Below, piece by piece: positions 3,484 through 17,460 of a stretch of DNA of 34,731 bases. The stretch is taken from the NCBI GenBank assembly GCA_003252385.1, contig QKEH01000149.1:1-34731 (forward strand), read 5' to 3'. The notes under the pieces are model-generated. The model did no database searches and was not told the origin of the DNA. It saw only the letters and a program-made list of their open reading frames with translations. The stretch is from Bacteroidota bacterium (lineage in GTDB: Bacteria; Bacteroidota; Bacteroidia; Bacteroidales; UBA10428). The translations under genes and the position numbers were made by a program. The number at the start of each line of letters is the position of its first letter. Position 1 is the stretch's first letter.

Positions 3484-4278
3484 TTATTTCACGTGATCCA
3501 ATTGCAAGCGCATGCCGGTTTTCAACTGACGGCCTCCAAAAGCCCTATAGAATGCCGCCATAGCCGGTAATTCAGTACAGTGCGAGGGGTACACCTGTGT
3601 TACTCCCAACTCCTTCAGGTAGCGGATGGTTTCGTGGGTTTGTTGGTTTTCTTTCTGCAAATGCAAGCCTCCGGTAACTGAAAGCACCCGCCTTTGCCCG
3701 GTAACCTGTATGGCCCGTTCAATGGTGTTACAGATCCCCGAATGCGAACATCCCCCAACAACGTGAATGCCGTGATCCTCGATACAAACCAGAGCCGAAT
3801 CGTCCGGCACAAAGTCGGGTTGGCTGTCGGCATTGACAAAAGCGGTGGTTTGTGACTCAAAAGCATTCAACCGGGGAATGCTGCCTAAAAAAACTATGGA
3901 ATCGCTAATAAAAAAGGGGTCGGCCGTAACCAGCAACTCAAAGCGTTCTTCCAGTTCGTGACGCGTAAGTACAAGGCCCAGATTCCGGTCTTCGCCGGGA
4001 TGGAAACGCTTCACAAAGGCATCGGGATGCAAAACCAGTTTCTTGTCCGAAATGTACCGCAATCCGTTGCCATGGTCCCAGTGACCGTGGCTTAGCACCA
4101 AACAATCGGCCTGCTGCTCCAGATCGATCCCCAACAGGCGGGCATTGTGCCGATACACATCGGTACTTCCGGTATCCAGGAGCACACAGCTTCCCTGATG
4201 TTCCACCAGGTACGAAAGGCCATGTTCGGCCAGAAAGCCGGCTCCGGCCACATTATCGGTTAAAATCGTTATTTTCAT
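3484..4278 (-). CDS. COG1237-type metallo-beta-lactamase-fold hydrolase
   Basis: This 264-residue protein has the metallo-beta-lactamase fold signature HGHWDH (in LSHGHWDHGNGL), which binds two metal ions. It also has the later GGCSHSGICNTIE and GGLHL elements typical of the COG1237 subgroup, annotated in archaea as dihydropterin-linked phosphate synthase-like. It is cytosolic, with no signal peptide. The substrate is unknown. COG1237 members often occur beside NifX-like proteins and ferredoxin-containing MinD ATPases in anaerobes, as in this cluster. The start overlaps the end of the upstream thioesterase gene by 26 bp, which indicates translational coupling. A TrmO/TsaA remnant follows 7 bp downstream. 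Confidence 0.85.
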   Translation of the reverse strand: MKITILTDNVAGAGFLAEHGLSYLVEHQGSCVLLDTGSTDVYRHNARLLGIDLEQQADCLVLSHGHWDHGNGLRYISDKKLVLHPDAFVKRFHPGEDRNLGLVLTRHELEERFELLVTADPFFISDSIVFLGSIPRLNAFESQTTAFVNADSQPDFVPDDSALVCIEDHGIHVVGGCSHSGICNTIERAIQVTGQRRVLSVTGGLHLQKENQQTHETIRYLKELGVTQVYPSHCTELPAMAAFYRAFGGRQLKTGMRLQLDHVK

Positions 4279-8879: not shown

Positions 8880-9671
8880 TCAGATTAGTACATCCATTTC
8901 GTGCCGGATCGTTTCGGACAGCAATTCAAAAGCCGCTACCAAAGGAGCGCTGGTACTGGCAAAAATGGTCTTTCCACAGTCGCCCAGATCGCAGGCATCG
9001 CTAACCAAAGGAATCTGAGCCAACAGGGGCACGTTAAGTTCGCCTGCCAGTTCGGCTCCGCCTCCCTGACCAAAGAGGTAGTATTTTTCATCGGGGTGTT
9101 TCTCGGGAGTAAACCACGACATATTTTCCACCACCCCTAGAATTTCCACATCGATACCCTTGGTACGAAACATGGTGGCAGCCTTCCGGCCATCGGCCAC
9201 AGCCATTTGCTGGGGCGTAATAACTACCAGTGCTCTGGCTCCGGGCAATTGTTGTGCCAGGGTGATGTTAATATCACCGGTTCCGGGAGGCATATCAATC
9301 ACCAGGTAATCCAGTTTTCCCCACAGGGTGTTCTGCAGCAACTGTTTAAGCGCATTGGAAGCCAGTGGCCCCCGCCAGATTACTGCACTTTCCTTGTTCA
9401 TTAAATACCCCAGCGACATGGTTTTAACCCCATAATTGCTAATGGGCGAAAATACCTCGCGATCGCCTTGTTTCTCCGTTATAGGATGTTGCCCGCTGGT
9501 GCCCAGCGCAAGGGGTACTGAAGGGCCGTACAAATCGGCATCGAGCAGTCCGGCAGCATAGCCGTTGCGAGCCAACGCCACAGCCAGATTGGTTGCCACC
9601 ATTGACTTGCCCACGCCTCCTTTTCCCGAGGCAACCAACACAATATTCTTCACTTCTTCCATTGTATTCAT
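8880..9671 (-). CDS. Mrp/NBP35-family P-loop ATPase, short form
   Basis: The Walker A motif SGKGGVGKS (residues 15-23), the DADLYGPSVP switch and DMPPGTGD identify the Mrp/NBP35 group of iron-sulfur carrier ATPases. The protein is 263 residues and lacks the N-terminal MIP18/DUF59 domain found in the housekeeping Bacteroidota Mrp of about 360 residues. The usual CxxC near the C-terminus is replaced by NMSWFTPEKHPDEKYYLFG, a form also seen in Bacteroidota Mrp proteins, while Cys residues remain in VSDACDLGDCGK. An Mrp protein is part of the Desulfovibrio ORP complex. The gene starts 11 bp after the second MinD-type ATPase, so the three ATPases are co-expressed. Confidence 0.88.
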   Translation of the reverse strand: MNTMEEVKNIVLVASGKGGVGKSMVATNLAVALARNGYAAGLLDADLYGPSVPLALGTSGQHPITEKQGDREVFSPISNYGVKTMSLGYLMNKESAVIWRGPLASNALKQLLQNTLWGKLDYLVIDMPPGTGDINITLAQQLPGARALVVITPQQMAVADGRKAATMFRTKGIDVEILGVVENMSWFTPEKHPDEKYYLFGQGGGAELAGELNVPLLAQIPLVSDACDLGDCGKTIFASTSAPLVAAFELLSETIRHEMDVLI

Positions 9672-9682
9672 AACATGTTAAT

Positions 9683-10579
9683 TTAATCGTATTTCTTAGG
9701 GGACAAACAGACCTCGTTTTTCAGCGCCTCCCAAATGCTCCGGATTTGATGGCTGACGGGCGACTCAGGCCGGTATTCCAATATGGTTTTACCGGCTTCC
9801 ATAGCCCAAACCACCTCCTCATCGAAAGGAATGCGAGCCAACAGGGGCACGCCTCTTTCGTTCAGGGAAGCTTCAATTTCACTTGAAATCTCGGGGCTGA
9901 TGTCGTACTTATTAATCACCGCACACAGCCCGGTTTGAAAAGTGGCCGCCAAATCCAGCAACCGTTCCGCATCGTGCCAACCGGAACGCGTGGGTTCAAT
10001 AACCAGCAACACCTGATGGGTGCCCGACAGGGAAGAAATGGTGGCACAACCAATTCCGGGCGGGCCATCGCTCAGGATGTAGTCCCGATTTTCGTTGCGG
10101 GCTAATTCTTTGGCTTTGGCACGTACCTGGCTGACCAGCTTTCCGGAGTTTTCTTCGCCCGGATCCATATGGGCATGCACCAATGTTCCGAAACGGGTCG
10201 ACGATACGTACCAGAAATTATCGCTGTTACGTTTAGAATAAATGGCCTGTTGCGGGCACACGCGTTCGCACAGGCGACAACCTTCGCACTGAAAAGGGTT
10301 AATGTAATATTCTCCCTGGCTGTGGGTATGTATCGCCTCAAACCGGCAATGCTGGCTGCACAAGCCACAGGCTTTACAAAGCTGCGGATTGATGGTGGCC
10401 GTCCAGCCGCTGATAAACGTATGTTCTTCCTGAACGGATGGATGTAAAACCAGATGAAGGTCGGCCGCATCCACATCGGTATCGCAAAAAACACCCGATT
10501 CGACTACCGTAGCCAAAGCGGCCGTGATACTGGTTTTACCGGTTCCGCCCTTACCGCTGAGTACGGTGATCTCCTTCAT
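9683..10579 (-). CDS. MinD-superfamily ATPase with inserted 2[4Fe-4S] ferredoxin domain (second copy)
   Basis: The protein is a COG1149-type ATPase of 298 residues. It has the deviant Walker A motif SGKGGTGKTS (residues 8-17), the switch VDAADLHL, and an inserted bacterial ferredoxin domain with Cys68/71/74/78 and Cys98/101/104/108. DGPPGIGC then follows in the Walker B/switch region. Such proteins occur in pairs in anaerobes next to NifX-like proteins, and two are part of the ORP complex of Desulfovibrio vulgaris. The start overlaps the end of the partner ATPase by 29 bp, consistent with heterodimer formation. The ATP-dependent target is not known. Confidence 0.92.
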   Translation of the reverse strand: MKEITVLSGKGGTGKTSITAALATVVESGVFCDTDVDAADLHLVLHPSVQEEHTFISGWTATINPQLCKACGLCSQHCRFEAIHTHSQGEYYINPFQCEGCRLCERVCPQQAIYSKRNSDNFWYVSSTRFGTLVHAHMDPGEENSGKLVSQVRAKAKELARNENRDYILSDGPPGIGCATISSLSGTHQVLLVIEPTRSGWHDAERLLDLAATFQTGLCAVINKYDISPEISSEIEASLNERGVPLLARIPFDEEVVWAMEAGKTILEYRPESPVSHQIRSIWEALKNEVCLSPKKYD

Positions 10580-11447
10580 GTTCTTTTATTTTATGTTGAA
10601 CCACCTCCAGTAAGCCGGCATATCCTCCGGCAACCTCGACAGGCAATGTTTCCAGGAAGTTTCCCCGAGCATAACCCGATGCAAATTCGCGGCTAAACGG
10701 AATCTCGGCCAACAGGTCAATGTGTTCCTTCTCCAGATAGCTGTATACTTCGCTGCCGCCCAGTCCTTTTTTATTAATCACCACACCAAAAGGCAAATTC
10801 AGTTTACGCACCAAGGCTACCATCAACTTTAAATCGTTAACCCCAAAGCGGGTGGGTTCAGTTACCAGAATCACATAGTCGGCATCGGCAATGGTTTCCA
10901 CTACTGGGCAGCTAGTTCCGGGCGGTGCATCGTAAAGTATTACTTCCCCTAAAGGGGAAATAGCCTTTTTCAATTCACGGATCAGCAAAGTTTGCATGGC
11001 CGAACCAATTCGAAGCCGCCCTTCGGTTAAATGGGCCAATTGACCCAGTTTATAATGATGGACGGCACCAATGGGCTCGGGACGCTCGCTGATGGCTCCG
11101 TACGTACAAGCCACCAGGCAGGCTCCGCAGGAATGGCACAAACTGGCATTTACCTGAGCAAACTTTACCGGAGGAATCACCACAATGGCATTGTACTCGC
11201 AGTACTCGGCACATTTTCGGCAAAATGTACAGCGATCGGTATCAATAGCCGGTATAAGCTGTTCAATTCCCTTTTCACTTTCCAGACAAGCTGCATGCTG
11301 AAAAAGCAGGGCATTAGGTTCTTCCACGTCGCAGTCGACCAAATGCACCTCCCTGCCCGCTTGTTTAAACTGATGAAATAAATTGGCCGAAATACTGGTT
11401 TTACCGGTTCCGCCTTTTCCACTGGCTATGGCAAGTTTATACGGCAT
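10551..11447 (-). CDS. MinD-superfamily ATPase with inserted 2[4Fe-4S] ferredoxin domain (first copy)
   Basis: This paralogue of the downstream ATPase is also 298 residues. Walker A is SGKGGTGKTS (residues 9-18), the switch is DCDVEEPNALL, and the inserted ferredoxin domain has Cys73/76/79/83 and Cys104/107/110/114. The nucleotide-binding DAPPGTSCPVV and TEPTRFGVNDLKL follow. Cys39 within VDCDVEEP is a common feature of this group. The overlap of 29 bp with the next gene and the equal length suggest a pair that evolved by duplication and works as a complex. Context is that of the ORP/MTH1175-type clusters of anaerobes. It is cytosolic, with no membrane segment. Confidence 0.92.
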   Translation of the reverse strand: MPYKLAIASGKGGTGKTSISANLFHQFKQAGREVHLVDCDVEEPNALLFQHAACLESEKGIEQLIPAIDTDRCTFCRKCAEYCEYNAIVVIPPVKFAQVNASLCHSCGACLVACTYGAISERPEPIGAVHHYKLGQLAHLTEGRLRIGSAMQTLLIRELKKAISPLGEVILYDAPPGTSCPVVETIADADYVILVTEPTRFGVNDLKLMVALVRKLNLPFGVVINKKGLGGSEVYSYLEKEHIDLLAEIPFSREFASGYARGNFLETLPVEVAGGYAGLLEVVQHKIKEHEGDHRTQR

Positions 11448-11552
11448 ATCTTCTTCTATCTTCTTGTCCTACCCTTCTTCAGGCTTGACCATGCAGGTTG
11501 CCAGGCACTCAAAACAAGCGGTAAGGCAATCGCTGCTGCGAATGGTTCTTTG

Positions 11553-11894
11553 TTAATGGTCGCAATAGTTGGCTGTAAGTTGCAGAGTTCCTTTCAAATG
11601 ACTAATTACCAATACATTGGCATGCAATGATGGCGCTCCGACAAAAACATTCACGCCAACCTGATTGAACAGTTCAATGGCTTTATGCCCCATGCCTCCG
11701 GCTATGATATCCGTTACCCCCAGTTCGGAAAGCCAACGGGGCAACAAGCCAGGTTCATGAGGTGGTGCAGGAATCTTTTCTTCCCGGGCGATGTTATCGG
11801 CCTCAATGGTGTGCAACGCAAAAAATTTACAATGACCAAAATGCCCATCGAGGATGCCTTCATTGTTGACTGGCACAGCTATTTTTGTACGCAT
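11553..11894 (-). CDS. NifX/NifB C-terminal-fold (PF02579-like) metallocluster-binding protein
   Basis: At 113 residues this is the length of stand-alone dinitrogenase-cofactor-type proteins. MRTKIAVPVNNEG, DGHFGHCKFFALH, LPRWLSELGVTDIIAGGMG and AIELFNQVGVNVFVGA match the ribonuclease-H-like NifX fold. HFGHC and the C-terminal NYCDH are possible metal or cluster ligands. ORP, which binds a Mo-Cu-S cluster in Desulfovibrio, has this fold. Just after the stop codon the same frame continues with a Cys-rich stretch of 27 codons (to 11472), reported separately. The gene is 105 bp upstream of the first MinD-type ATPase and 156 bp downstream of the DUF5320 gene. Confidence 0.88.
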   Translation of the reverse strand: MRTKIAVPVNNEGILDGHFGHCKFFALHTIEADNIAREEKIPAPPHEPGLLPRWLSELGVTDIIAGGMGHKAIELFNQVGVNVFVGAPSLHANVLVISHLKGTLQLTANYCDH

Positions 11895-11932
11895 CGTTAC
11901 TTTATTAAAAACGGTTTTACCTGTGTATTAAA

Positions 11933-11958
11933 TTCCTGCTTCCGCATGGAAGCAGGAA
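11933..11958 (-). promoter_or_regulatory. Strong hairpin in the leader of the NifX-like gene
   Basis: A perfect 11-bp stem, TTCCTGCTTCC with GGAAGCAGGAA around a 4-base loop, lies 39 bp before the start codon at 11894. No real T-run follows, so it is more likely an mRNA stabiliser, a processing site or an attenuator than a simple terminator. Confidence 0.5.
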
Positions 11959-12050
11959 GACTGCACTTATGAACTTATCATAGAACTCAAAGGGTGTAGT
12001 GGTCTGAGAGCGCCCTAACCCTGGAGTTGGAGCATTCTGCGGAAAGCCGG

Positions 12051-12245
12051 TTAATTGTGTTGGGAAGACCTTCTCTTCCCATGACCATGCCCGGCACCTG
12101 CGCCCTGGTGTTTACCCTGGCGTAAGCCTAAGCGGGTTTCATCTGCCTCCAACTTTCCGTTGCGGTTTTCGGGATTGCATTTACCTCTTTTTCGGCCTGT
12201 CTGGGATCCTTTACCTTCGGGGCCTGTTCGATCAAATCCTGGCAT
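12051..12245 (-). CDS. DUF5320 small protein
   Basis: The 64-residue protein begins MPGFDRTGPEGKGS, followed by TGRKRGKC, the hallmark of DUF5320, a family found beside DUF134 and NifX-like genes in anaerobes. The rest is Gly/Lys/His-rich and probably disordered (GAGAGHGHGKRR), which could bind metal. A GTG two codons upstream lies inside the ribosome-binding site. The strong AGGAGG is placed about 6 bp before the ATG at 12245, so that ATG is the start. Such a good Shine-Dalgarno sequence is unusual for this phylum. The biochemical role is unknown. Confidence 0.8.
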   Translation of the reverse strand: MPGFDRTGPEGKGSQTGRKRGKCNPENRNGKLEADETRLGLRQGKHQGAGAGHGHGKRRSSQHN

Positions 12246-12267
12246 ACTCACCTCCTTTTTTTAGTTA

Positions 12268-12588
12268 TTACTCGTGTTGGAAACGGTTGACAATGTCCTG
12301 CACGGTGAGTGATTCATCCTGCAGAATCACCATTTGTATTTCAAACTTATCCAGCAAATCCTTGGCCTTGGGGCCAAAATCGCCGGAAATTACTTTTCCG
12401 ATACCCAATTCCACCATCTTCTCTGCGGCTTTGGTGCCGGCTCCGTTACTGGCTTCCACCAAAACGTTCTCAATGAATTCTTCTATCTGATTGGATGCAT
12501 TTAACACACAAAACCAGGCTCCCCGGCCAAATCGCCGGTCGAAAGCACTGTCGGCGGTATTGCCTGCTGCAGTTATTACTGTTTTCAT
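12268..12588 (-). CDS. NifX-fold (PF02579-like) protein, second copy
   Basis: A 106-residue stand-alone NifX-fold protein: MKTVITAAGNTADSAFDRRFGRGAWFCVLN, EASNGAGTKAAEKMVELGIGKVISGDFGPKA and a final DESLTVQDIVNRF. SAFDRRFGR is the common N-terminal form in MTH1175-like proteins, whose role in metal-sulfur cluster handling is inferred from the Nif relatives. It shares only fold-level similarity with the other NifX-like gene of the cluster, so the two probably have different partners. It is the second recognised gene of the cluster after the DUF134 regulator and is followed 22 bp later by DUF5320. Confidence 0.88.
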   Translation of the reverse strand: MKTVITAAGNTADSAFDRRFGRGAWFCVLNASNQIEEFIENVLVEASNGAGTKAAEKMVELGIGKVISGDFGPKAKDLLDKFEIQMVILQDESLTVQDIVNRFQHE

Positions 12589-12602
12589 CTGCTTACTTAT
12601 TT

Positions 12603-12713
12603 TTAGTTGTCTGGAGAAGCATCCGTGTGCATAATCGTATTATCCCCGATTTGCAGGGATGTTTCATCCGGTTCGCATGTATTGGTCCATTTTTGTATCG
12701 GTGTCGTGCACAT
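12603..12713 (-). CDS. Candidate small protein of 36 residues between DUF134 and the NifX-like gene
   Basis: An open frame starts ATG at 12713 (MCTTPIQKWTNTCEPDETSL...) and ends 14 bp before the downstream NifX-like start. AAGGGG lies about 8 bp before this ATG, a plausible ribosome-binding site. An earlier in-frame ATG at 12740 would give 45 residues. It has two Cys residues and an acidic C-terminus. I do not recognise it. It fills most of a 174-bp gap in an otherwise dense cluster, which is the main argument for it. Confidence 0.3.
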   Translation of the reverse strand: MCTTPIQKWTNTCEPDETSLQIGDNTIMHTDASPDN

Positions 12714-12762
12714 GGCTTCGCCCCTTACAGGGATATGCATAGTCACAGAACGACTGGTAACA

Positions 12763-13167
12763 CTAATTTTTTAAAGGTTCCACACATTCCGATGCACAAA
12801 GCGGGCAGCTGTTTTGTTTGTGGCTGCGCGGAATGGTAAACCGGGCATGACAGCTTAAACACTCGTACCAGCTTTTATCGAGTACGGCATTACCATACAC
12901 CGCTTTTATTTCGCGGGTTTCCACCAGCGCCTGGGCAATTTTCCGGCGGGCACTTTCATAAATCCGGGCAAAGGTGGGTCTTGATATCCCCATCAACCTG
13001 GCCGCTTCGGTATGGTGCATCAGATCGTAATCGGCCAGTTTAATAGCTTCGTATTCCTCGTACAGCAATTCAACACGCTCGCTGCAAAGCCCATTTACCC
13101 CGTAGGGTCTAAAACCTTGAAACCGGGGAGGTGCCACCACTTTTCTCAAACTTATTTTTCTGGGCAT
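12763..13167 (-). CDS. DUF134 family DNA-binding regulator
   Basis: From MPRKISLRKVV the protein is 134 residues, and an alternative Met lies four codons upstream at 13179. FQGFRPYGV and ELLYEEYEAIKLADYD are DUF134 signatures. HHTEAARLMGISRPTFARIYESARRKIAQAL is a sigma-70 region-4-like helix-turn-helix. The C-terminus adds a zinc-ribbon-like pair, CLSC and CPLC, not needed for the family. DUF134 proteins are found with NifX-like and DUF5320 genes in anaerobes and are presumed transcription factors. The gene lies directly behind a promoter with two identical palindromes, so autoregulation and control of the whole leftward cluster are likely (inference). Confidence 0.88.
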   Translation of the reverse strand: MPRKISLRKVVAPPRFQGFRPYGVNGLCSERVELLYEEYEAIKLADYDLMHHTEAARLMGISRPTFARIYESARRKIAQALVETREIKAVYGNAVLDKSWYECLSCHARFTIPRSHKQNSCPLCASECVEPLKN

Positions 13168-13188
13168 ACGCAGGTTCAATTGCTTATT

Positions 13189-13236
13189 GAGAATATTCTC
13201 GATACAAATATAATGAGAATATTCTCATTTCAAAAA
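13189..13236 (-). promoter_or_regulatory. Promoter of the ORP-like cluster with twin GAGAATATTCTC operators
   Basis: Reading leftward there is TTTTTG (13231-13236), 18 bp, then the perfect Bacteroidota -7 box TATATTTG (13205-13212). Two copies of the 12-bp palindrome GAGAATATTCTC lie at 13189-13200 and 13215-13226, 26 bp apart. One lies between the -33 and -7 boxes and the other near the transcription start. This is a classical layout for a dimeric repressor. The obvious candidate is DUF134, but an iron- or redox-responsive regulator is possible. Confidence 0.75.
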
Positions 13237-15555: not shown

Positions 15556-17460
15556 ATGAATGATTTATGCCCTGTAGTTAAAGTCGATTCCGATCTGTGT
15601 GTCAATTGCCATGCCTGTATCACCGCCTGCCCGGTAAAATTTTGTAACGATGGCAGTGGCAATTATGTCAAAATTAACGACAATTTGTGTATAGGTTGCG
15701 GCAGTTGTATTGAAGCGTGCACGCATCAGGCCCGCAAACCCATCGACGATTTTGAACGCTTCCTGTATGCCCTGAACCAGGGTAAACCCATGGTGGCAGT
15801 GGTGGCACCGGCCGTAGCTTCAAACTTCCCCAACCTCTATCTCAATCTGAATGGATGGCTAAAACAAATGGGGGTTCAGGCTACGTTCGATGTAAGTTTT
15901 GGTGCCGAACTCACGGTAAAATCCTATTTGGAACATGCCAAAACGGATCCGGGCACCATCATTGCGCAACCCTGTCCGGCCATTGTCAGCTACATCGAGA
16001 TTTACCGACCGGAGCTGTTGCCCTATCTGGCTCCTGCCGACAGCCCCATGCTGCATACCATTAAAATGATTAAAACCTTCTATCCCCAATACGCCCAGCA
16101 CGAGGTGGCGGTTATTTCACCCTGTTTGGCCAAACGTCGCGAATTTGATACCACGCAAATGGGCGATTACAACGTCACCCTGCGAGCCATTTCCGACTAC
16201 CTGGAGCAATCCCAAATTTCATTGCGCTCCTTTCCCGAGGAAGACTTCGACCAGCCTCCTGCCGAGCGTGCCGTACTGTTTTCCACACCCGGTGGTTTAT
16301 TACGCACTGCCCTGCGCGAGAACCCCGAATTGGGCCAGGTAACCCGCAAAATCGAAGGTAAAGAACACATCTATCCCTATCTGGATCACCTGCATGCCAG
16401 TATTTCCAATGGGCATGCACCGTTCATTATCGACTGCCTGAATTGCGCCATGGGCTGCAACGGTGGCCCGGGAACCATTAACCAGCATAAATCGCCCGAC
16501 CAAATCGAATACTTTATAGAGCAACGCAAACAACACATGATCGAAAAACATGGCATGAACCGCCTAAAACCCGCACAACGCCGCCGTCAGAAGGCCAAAC
16601 TCGACAAAAGCATCAATCGCTACTGGCAACCCGGTTTGTATGCCCGCACCTACCAGAATCGTGCTGCCTACAACCAGTTGAAACTCCCCACACCCAACGA
16701 GCTGCAAACCATCCTAAACAGCATGGATAAGTACTCCCAGAATGACTTGTTCAACTGCTCGTCCTGTGGTTATGGTTCGTGCCACGATATGGCATTTGCC
16801 ATTCATAACAAACTGAACTCGCGTGAAAACTGCCATCACTATAAAAGTAATATGTTGGTAAAGATGGCTATGGAGGTTTCCGATACCCTGAAAAAAATAA
16901 GCGATAACCTGCAATGTGTCAACGATATCATTGCCAAGTTCAGTTCTCTGAGGAGCGATTTTGCCATACTGAACCAGTCCATTGGAAAACAGGAGGAGCT
17001 CCTTCACGATTTTCAGGACATCGCCCATATGATATCCGGTATTTCCTTCCAAACCAACCTGTTGTCGCTGAATGCTTCCATTGAAGCCGCCCGCGCAGGT
17101 GAAGTGGGAAAAGGTTTTTCCGTGGTAGCCGCCGAAGTGAAACGTATGGCCGATCAGAGTGCCTTTGAGGTTCAAAAAATCGGCCCGTATTCCGAGAAAC
17201 TAAAAACCCTGTTCAACGAAGTTTCCAACAAAGTGGCCAATGCTTCCGGCGAATTTGATCTGGGCACGCAAATGTGTATGTTGGTAGCTGCCTCGGTCGA
17301 CGAAATACAGCTACTGGCAAGCAACCTGTCGCAAAAATCGGAGGAAATTGCCAGCATCGAAAAATCACTGAGTAAAAACGTTCAGAACACCTCCCGGAAT
17401 AAAACGCTGAATTTGAACCATTCCCAACACACCCTACGTTTTATCAATTACTTGTCGTAA
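15556..17460 (+). CDS. Putative sensory [FeFe]-hydrogenase fused to a chemoreceptor signalling domain
   Basis: The 634 residues carry, in order, two [4Fe-4S] ferredoxin motifs (Cys15/18/21/25 and Cys45/48/51/55), an H-cluster domain (about 75-320), an Fe-S domain of PF04060 type with Cys401/404/409/426, and a chemotaxis signalling hairpin (about 440-560; tip [20 protein letters not shown]). All four H-cluster Cys ligands are present: Cys140 (QPCPAI), Cys190 (SPCLAKRRE), Cys297 and Cys301 (CAMGC). The proton-relay Cys of catalytic enzymes (TSCCP) is Pro139, which fits a sensor with low turnover. There is no membrane segment. It resembles the group C putatively sensory hydrogenases. It probably reports H2 or redox state to CheW/CheA. 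Maturases HydEFG are not in the window. Confidence 0.87.

Follow-up and report, generated by a model that had tools for sequence, protein, structure and literature searches.

A putative DUF134 repressor, its palindromic sites and an orange protein-type operon in a Bacteroidota genome

We analyzed a 34,731-nucleotide stretch of the genome of an anaerobic Bacteroidota bacterium, hereafter the window (contig QKEH01000149.1, which is contig 79 of the 182 contigs of this 3.93-Mb genome). Its minus strand carries, from position 13167 down to 8880, a block of seven genes encoding, in this order, DUF134, NifX-A, DUF5320, NifX-B, MinD1, MinD2 and Mrp. Our main finding is that this block is probably an autoregulated operon of the orange protein (ORP) type, in which a DUF134 repressor would act on palindromes ahead of its own gene, and whose products would handle a metal-sulphide cluster. 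What carries this reading was computed: the operon and its family matches, the operator sites, a rule that ties two bases of these sites to one residue of the regulator, and fusions between the regulator and the proteins encoded beside it.

Palindromes ahead of DUF134 genes and the residue that tracks them

Two palindromes of the form GAGAATATTCTC bracket a candidate -7 box ahead of the DUF134 gene, where only 0.03 exact palindromes would be expected in the whole window. The first predicted operator, O1, is the perfect palindrome TGAGAATATTCTCA (13214..13227); it lies in the spacer between a candidate -33 element, TTTG (13231..13234, minus strand), and the candidate -7 box TATATTTG (13205..13212, minus strand), a TAnnTTTG sequence that starts one base after O1 and 18 bases after TTTG. 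The second, O2 (CGAGAATATTCTCA, 13188..13201), is found 26 bp from O1, just below the -7 box. Both TTTG and TAnnTTTG are described as Bacteroides promoter elements (PMC7366714). The 26-bp spacing recurs at six other loci (L077, L045, L083, L088, L079 and L043), and the -7 box begins exactly one base past the site in 18 of the 34 Thr- or Ala-type DUF134 genes (classes explained below) that have a site.

The exact 12-mer GAGAATATTCTC occurs three times in the genome, twice before DUF134; the third copy, on contig 73, was rejected as a regulatory target, as it falls inside an open reading frame (ORF) of 1382 codons. Across 60 genomes, the window's own and 59 relatives, 46 sites of this type were counted, as compared to 6 for the reversed pattern. 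Eleven of the 46 stand directly before DUF134 genes, all within six genomes of the same genus, which hold 14 sites in total.

To go beyond these genomes, 88 distinct DUF134 genes were collected from the relatives and from loci of named genomes, keeping only DUF134 matches that show the helix pattern described below. When the 120 bp before each gene were searched with no motif assumed, 22 of the 88 had a perfect 14-bp palindrome, versus 2.5 for shuffled sequences and 3 of 88 downstream. The general form TGAnnATATnnTCA is present upstream of 43 of them, and downstream of only one (shuffles, 0.95). A new set was then taken, partly within Bacteroidota and partly within the phylum to which a Desulfobacterales genome belongs. 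It was not a random sample, being made of 58 best-match loci and 20 stretches chosen for other families, with site content unseen at the time of choice; 69 of its 75 genes were kept, the six others having no helix pattern. Here the site lies upstream in 22 of 69 genes and downstream in one.

The two variable bases, nn, of TGAnnATATnnTCA track one residue, X, of the motif S-R-x-T-F-X-R (or a variant of it) in the recognition helix of the DUF134 protein encoded next to the site. In the first set, AC accompanies Thr in 28 of 30 half-sites and Ser in 4 of 4, GA accompanies Ala (23/32), GC accompanies Gly (8/12) and AT accompanies His (6/8). This rule was fixed before the new set was drawn, and 41 of 42 half-sites obey it there, in the 21 genes whose residue it covers; permutation of the new set gave a mean of 25.4 half-sites, and the observed 41 was reached once in 20,000. 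The DUF134 protein of the window, whose helix is SRPTFAR (residues 62-68), has Ala67 at position X and GAGAATATTCTC as its site. A second DUF134 gene of the same genome, on contig 132, is preceded by TGAACATATGTTCA, the sole copy in the genome, and the two genes thus have differing sites, each fitting its own helix. The cluster around this second gene (L013, 3627-5262) comprises DUF134 with the helix SRPTLTR, two NifX-type proteins and a further protein, which we take to be DUF1847-like.

An archaeal sample of 28 DUF134 genes (two of 30 were duplicates and left out) has the site in three, with TGAATATATATTCA standing beside His (L334) and Tyr (L332, L333). Gln-type helices form a separate observation: SRGTIQR and SRGTVQR, in L328 and L302, go with TGTGCATATGCACA and CGTGCATATGCACA upstream, which may add a further letter to the code. 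Outside the rule are the proteins of 28 new genes of a Bacteroidota family, f55, those with the helix SRPTVTR, and most SRGTV-type proteins. In the f55 group (L252-L280 without L271), all 28 proteins have a GRP-type N-terminus and a Gly-type helix, and their genes have no site at the threshold used.

From the agreement between letters and residue we infer direct binding: DUF134 would be a small repressor, probably dimeric, that binds through a DeoR-like helix, the constant operator bases being read mainly by the conserved arginines in S-R-x-T-F-X-R, with nn following residue X. DUF134 might also bind the palindromes yet activate the operon, much as DVU2106 of Desulfovibrio is described as activating the orp operons while repressing its own gene. 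The position of the sites speaks otherwise: O1 fills the spacer that separates the -33 element from the -7 box, and O2 comes directly below that box. In four archaeal genes, L331 to L334, the site adjoins the start codon, below what looks by eye like a TATA-like stretch. We consider activation improbable, and repression by DUF134 likely.

The DUF134 protein, its fusions and its candidate regulon

The DUF134 gene (12763..13167, minus strand) encodes a protein of 134 residues that matches PF02001 (E 1.2e-19; 71.1 bits, versus a cut-off of 27) and ends in a Cys knuckle. Its nearest solved relative by sequence is the DNA-binding domain of DeoR of Bacillus subtilis, a member of the SorC family (7BHY, profile E 2.8e-4), with which it shares a related helix-turn-helix. 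In a structural model, residues 63-83 form the third helix, with the motif at its start; comparison of this model with known folds gave sigma region 4 in the top rows (Z up to 7.4), and DeoR was absent among the 50 rows listed. The corresponding helix of DeoR reads SRPTVSR. Its operator starts with ATTGAACA and ends with TACATATGTTCAA, the half-site being TTGAACA, and residues R34 and R39 touch bases (PMC11229326); judging by their spacing, these would be the two arginines of the helix motif. Ser predicts AC under the rule, and the DeoR operator shows AC. Unlike SorC proteins, which have a C-terminal sugar-binding effector domain of about 250 residues, the window protein consists of DUF134 and the Cys knuckle, and other members of the family bear NifX or DUF5320 domains rather than a sugar-binding one. 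We therefore expect DUF134 to work like the DNA-binding domain of DeoR, without being a SorC member. The Cys knuckle is present in 104 of 185 DUF134 proteins (41 of 43 Thr-type and 18 of 19 Ala-type) and may, though not generally, add metal sensing.

Ten of the 185 proteins are at least 190 residues long, and the four that were tested are all fusions, with NifX in L026, L206 and L294 (PF02579, E 6e-22 to 3e-14) and with DUF5320 in L295; these loci come from draft or metagenome assemblies, and the fused frames are provisional. The fusion genes of L026 and L206 also have the operator TGAACATATGTTCA. That the regulator is fused to the very domains standing beside it in the window is strong evidence of shared function, and the NifX fusions make the NifX-fold protein the likeliest sensor of cluster supply.

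The form TGAACATATGTTCA has 13 copies in the 60 genomes, while the reversed pattern has none. Some of the genes at these copies were identified with Pfam. They include DUF134 itself (3) and NifX-A operons with no adjacent DUF134 (2), both of which adjoin a heavy-metal exporter (PF11449 in the one tested). The others are DUF5320 with an ARMT1-like gene (2), a TrmO-like gene with a ferredoxin, a radical SAM gene, DUF4405-type genes (2, one tested), and two that were named by eye, a 4Fe-4S protein gene and a thioredoxin-like gene. This list suggests that DUF134 may control ORP-type and metal or redox genes in trans. Sites as rare as these are also a guide to other ORP-linked genes, namely the radical SAM, TrmO-like, ARMT1-like, metal exporter and archaeal Mrp genes. 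In the last case, the Mrp-type genes L200:6266-7054 and L358:1959-2750 have TGAATATATATTCA-like sites upstream, as if they belonged to a DUF134 regulon.

The first-pass annotation had proposed that DUF134 replaces the sigma-54 system controlling the ORP genes of Desulfovibrio vulgaris. This is still the best reading, given the operator sites and a count of sigma-54-like sites in the window that is at chance level (12, versus 10.1 expected, two of them inside operon genes), on which ground visible sigma-54 control of the operon was rejected. A sigma-54 gene (rpoN) is present elsewhere in the genome, so that sigma-54 is not lacking but simply not visibly used at this operon. In D. vulgaris a cognate activator lies beside the genes, whereas the seven genes of the block include none.

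A literature search on DUF134, UPF0251, COG1342 and PF02001 found no DNA target for the family in the papers covered. The word match also catches DUF1340 to DUF1349, as with PMC10434189, where the match is to DUF1349; in PMC5886521, UPF0251 is named once, within a list of mutations. A search with the palindromes as words returned unrelated titles only.

The ORP-type gene block

All seven genes lie where the first-pass annotation had placed them, and Pfam and NCBIfam confirm their identities. Downstream of DUF134 comes NifX-A (12268..12588, minus strand, as are all genes of the block), an orange-protein-like protein with an RFGR motif that matches Nitro_FeMo-Co (E 5.9e-10) and is closest, among solved proteins, to the orange protein of D. 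gigas (2WFB, E 3e-12). It is followed by the DUF5320 gene (12051..12251; PF17253, E 4.1e-10) and by NifX-B (11553..11894; Nitro_FeMo-Co, E 1.1e-14), which corresponds to the Di-Nase domain of MrpORP in unfused form. Its match covers positions 265-365 of NF041136, the MrpORP model, with an E-value of 1.8e-30 but far under the whole-protein cut-off, and it contains HFGHC and a terminal CDH, two motifs reported for the Di-Nase domain of MrpORP (PMC6345978); the leading Cys of CxHFGHCE is replaced by Asp. Two ferredoxin-MinD ATPases come next, MinD1 (10551..11447) and MinD2 (9683..10579), both with PF01656 and PF00037 domains. The last gene, Mrp (8880..9671), encodes an Mrp-type ATPase without the CxxC ligand (NUBPL/Mrp, PF10609, E 9e-84). 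It matches the ATPase part of NF041136 with an E-value of 1.6e-74; its score with the ApbC model (264.9 bits) is slightly above that with the MrpORP model (251.4 bits), both being far under the curated cut-offs. In the alignment, all 19 Bacteroidota rows (18 distinct loci) show an Mrp loop free of Cys, and 21 of 23 rows of other phyla show CPxC. Row counts of ORP proteins include both L058 and L143, which are one locus with identical genes.

By sequence, the block is thus ORP-like, with differences. The ORP complex of Desulfovibrio vulgaris (Orp3, Orp4, Orp5, Orp8 and Orp9) likewise has two ferredoxin-MinD ATPases, an ORP-type NifX, and Mrp and Di-Nase domains, all clustered (PMC6345978). The adjacent ATPases of Orp3/Orp4 type have their counterpart in the MinD pair, and the single-domain, orange-protein-related Orp8 has its own in NifX-A; the Mo-Cu-S cluster bound by the NifX protein of the ORP complex is no more than a possibility here. 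On the other hand, the two-domain MrpORP (Orp9, NF041136), fused in Desulfovibrio, is here split into separate genes (8880-9671 and 11553-11894) that miss the 450-bit NF041136 cut-off, the CxxC [4Fe-4S] ligand of the Mrp domain is absent, DUF134 and DUF5320 are added, and no sigma-54 control is seen. The ORP-like label of the first-pass annotation therefore holds, the ATPase pair and both NifX proteins being of ORP type by 2WFB, NF041136 and the MinD tree; its statement that the make-up is that of D. vulgaris is right for the types of genes, and needs correcting for the split MrpORP and for an Mrp without CxxC.

The order DUF134-NifXA-(DUF5320)-NifXB-MinD1-MinD2-(Mrp) recurs in many relatives, which shows that the linkage is conserved and that the arrangement is not due to chance. 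An ARMT1-like/DUF89 phosphatase gene, absent from the window, often stands between NifX-B and MinD1 (L058:4107-4967, with similar cases in L067, L071, L083 and L088); the L058 gene, the only one tested, matches PF01937. Among the 60 genomes, 26 have MinD1-type ATPases, 34 have DUF134 and 24 have both, G012 and G055 being those with MinD1 and no DUF134. A search of named genomes found at least 80 loci of MinD1 relatives, in Bacteroidota, Desulfobacterota, Chloroflexota, Planctomycetota, archaea and others, and most of these relatives have MinD2 and NifX-type genes as neighbours (one search of the genomes of named loci covered those of 50 of 80 MinD1 loci). In a FastTree phylogeny of 150 rows, a single fully supported branch separates MinD1 (80) from MinD2 (70), and both window copies group among Bacteroidota, each within its own half. 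This argues that the paired ATPases form an old cassette, of which the Bacteroidota operon is one branch. The two checks named beforehand as able to refute the ORP assignment, phylogeny and conserved linkage, were in this way run in part and did not refute it. The tree contained no D. vulgaris sequence, and what ties the operon to that organism is 2WFB, NF041136 and the set of genes in common.

Both ATPases have a Cys in the motif DxPPGxxC, Cys180 in MinD1 and Cys178 in MinD2, and this Cys lies seven residues past the motif Asp in 91 of 91 MinD1 rows and 81 of 81 MinD2 rows. NifH of the same genome has a Cys at the identical offset, which is not established as an equivalence because the comparison of MinD and NifH profiles aligned the P-loop or a C-terminal stretch only. 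The conserved MinD Cys may be the ligand of a bridging cluster.

Elsewhere in the window, a metallo-beta-lactamase-fold hydrolase (3484..4278, minus strand; PF00753) belongs to a family that recurs beside ORP cassettes. On the plus strand, 15556-17460 encodes a 634-residue protein with two 4Fe-4S motifs, PF02906 (E 1.2e-30) and PF00015 (E 2.9e-26), in which an iron-only hydrogenase large-subunit domain is joined to a chemotaxis signalling domain, as in a sensory-hydrogenase-like fusion. Rfam and tRNA scans of the window gave no matches.

Alternatives and a proposed mode of action

Several results count against an autoregulated, cluster-handling operon controlled by DUF134. The site is missing at 45 of 88 genes of the first set, 47 of 69 of the new set (28 of these 47 belonging to f55) and 25 of 28 of the archaeal sample, which consists mostly of SRGTVWR proteins without a site and whose downstream control is 1 of 28; it is also found at 19 of 648 other ORFs of the same loci. 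First-set agreement with the rule is only 23 of 32 for Ala-GA and 8 of 12 for Gly-GC, and independent changes are few (9 for nn, 12 for X), with two supported pairs only in a tree-aware test (p 0.5). The Cys knuckle is absent in 81 of 185 DUF134 proteins, which argues against it as a general sensor. Finally, Mrp is devoid of CxxC, the ligand that is the presumed basis of cluster transfer by MrpORP.

Siteless DUF134 genes, together with sites at other ORFs, are what could be expected if the palindromes belonged to another regulator, such as a redox or metal sensor, with DUF134 as a passenger gene. Some of the 19 ORFs are divergent partners, and others (NifX-A, Mrp, ARMT1-like, radical SAM) look like members of a regulon, but not all do. 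A passenger gene would not, however, be expected to have its own recognition-helix residue tracked by the letters of the site, new genes included, nor would two DUF134 genes of one genome have distinct sites that match their respective helices. We judge another regulator to be quite unlikely, and control of the operon by DUF134 very likely.

Could the MinD and Mrp proteins instead form a partition machine that places the NifX scaffold or the division septum? ATPases of MinD/ParA type are present, and MrpORP of Desulfovibrio is reported as polar (PMC6345978); a septum role there is called putative. Yet no division gene was seen beside the ten operons listed, and the recurring neighbours (ZIP, ARMT1-like, radical SAM, ArsP_2 exporter) are related to metals or redox. 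A partition role is unsupported here, and we give it little chance. That the cassette mainly serves nitrogenase cofactor assembly is the least probable alternative, and highly improbable: it includes proteins of the NifX fold, and nif genes, nifH among them, are present in the genome together with a NifB-NifX type protein (named by eye), but these are on another contig with their own NifX-type genes, and NifX-A is closest to orange protein. The nif genes are on contig 142 (L014, L361), where nifH occurs with the gene of a NifB-like protein that ends in a NifX domain, and further NifX-type genes follow, again named by eye.

Under the autoregulated operon that we favor, DUF134 would be made at a low level, and its occupancy of O1 and O2 would block its own promoter by shutting out RNA polymerase. 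A signal, perhaps a metal or a cluster on a NifX protein, would release it. The orange-protein-like NifX, the free Di-Nase domain, the paired ferredoxin-MinD ATPases and Mrp would then be made and form an ORP-like complex, whose task would most likely be to assemble, hold or move a cluster of the Fe-S or mixed-metal sulphide kind; such cluster handling is plausible. Extended to the family, a reading towards which we lean only slightly is that DUF134 may be a dedicated repressor of orange-protein and NifX-type cluster genes in anaerobes, from Bacteroidota to archaea, with a one-residue code (Thr or Ser for AC, Ala for GA, Gly for GC, His or Tyr for AT in TGAnnATATnnTCA) and a signal that may come through a metal- or cluster-binding NifX-fold partner or fused domain.

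If this is true, the ORP machinery would be a regulated system of metal-cluster homeostasis, and not a division machine. Its Bacteroidota version does without the CxxC of Mrp, on which the present model of cluster transfer is based. To judge by the fusions, NifX-fold proteins may act as sensors; the fusions and the site-linked genes together offer an entry to the function of the ORP complex. For a family known only as DUF134, the analysis provides a candidate target on DNA, a likely way of acting and a simple recognition rule that spans bacteria and archaea.

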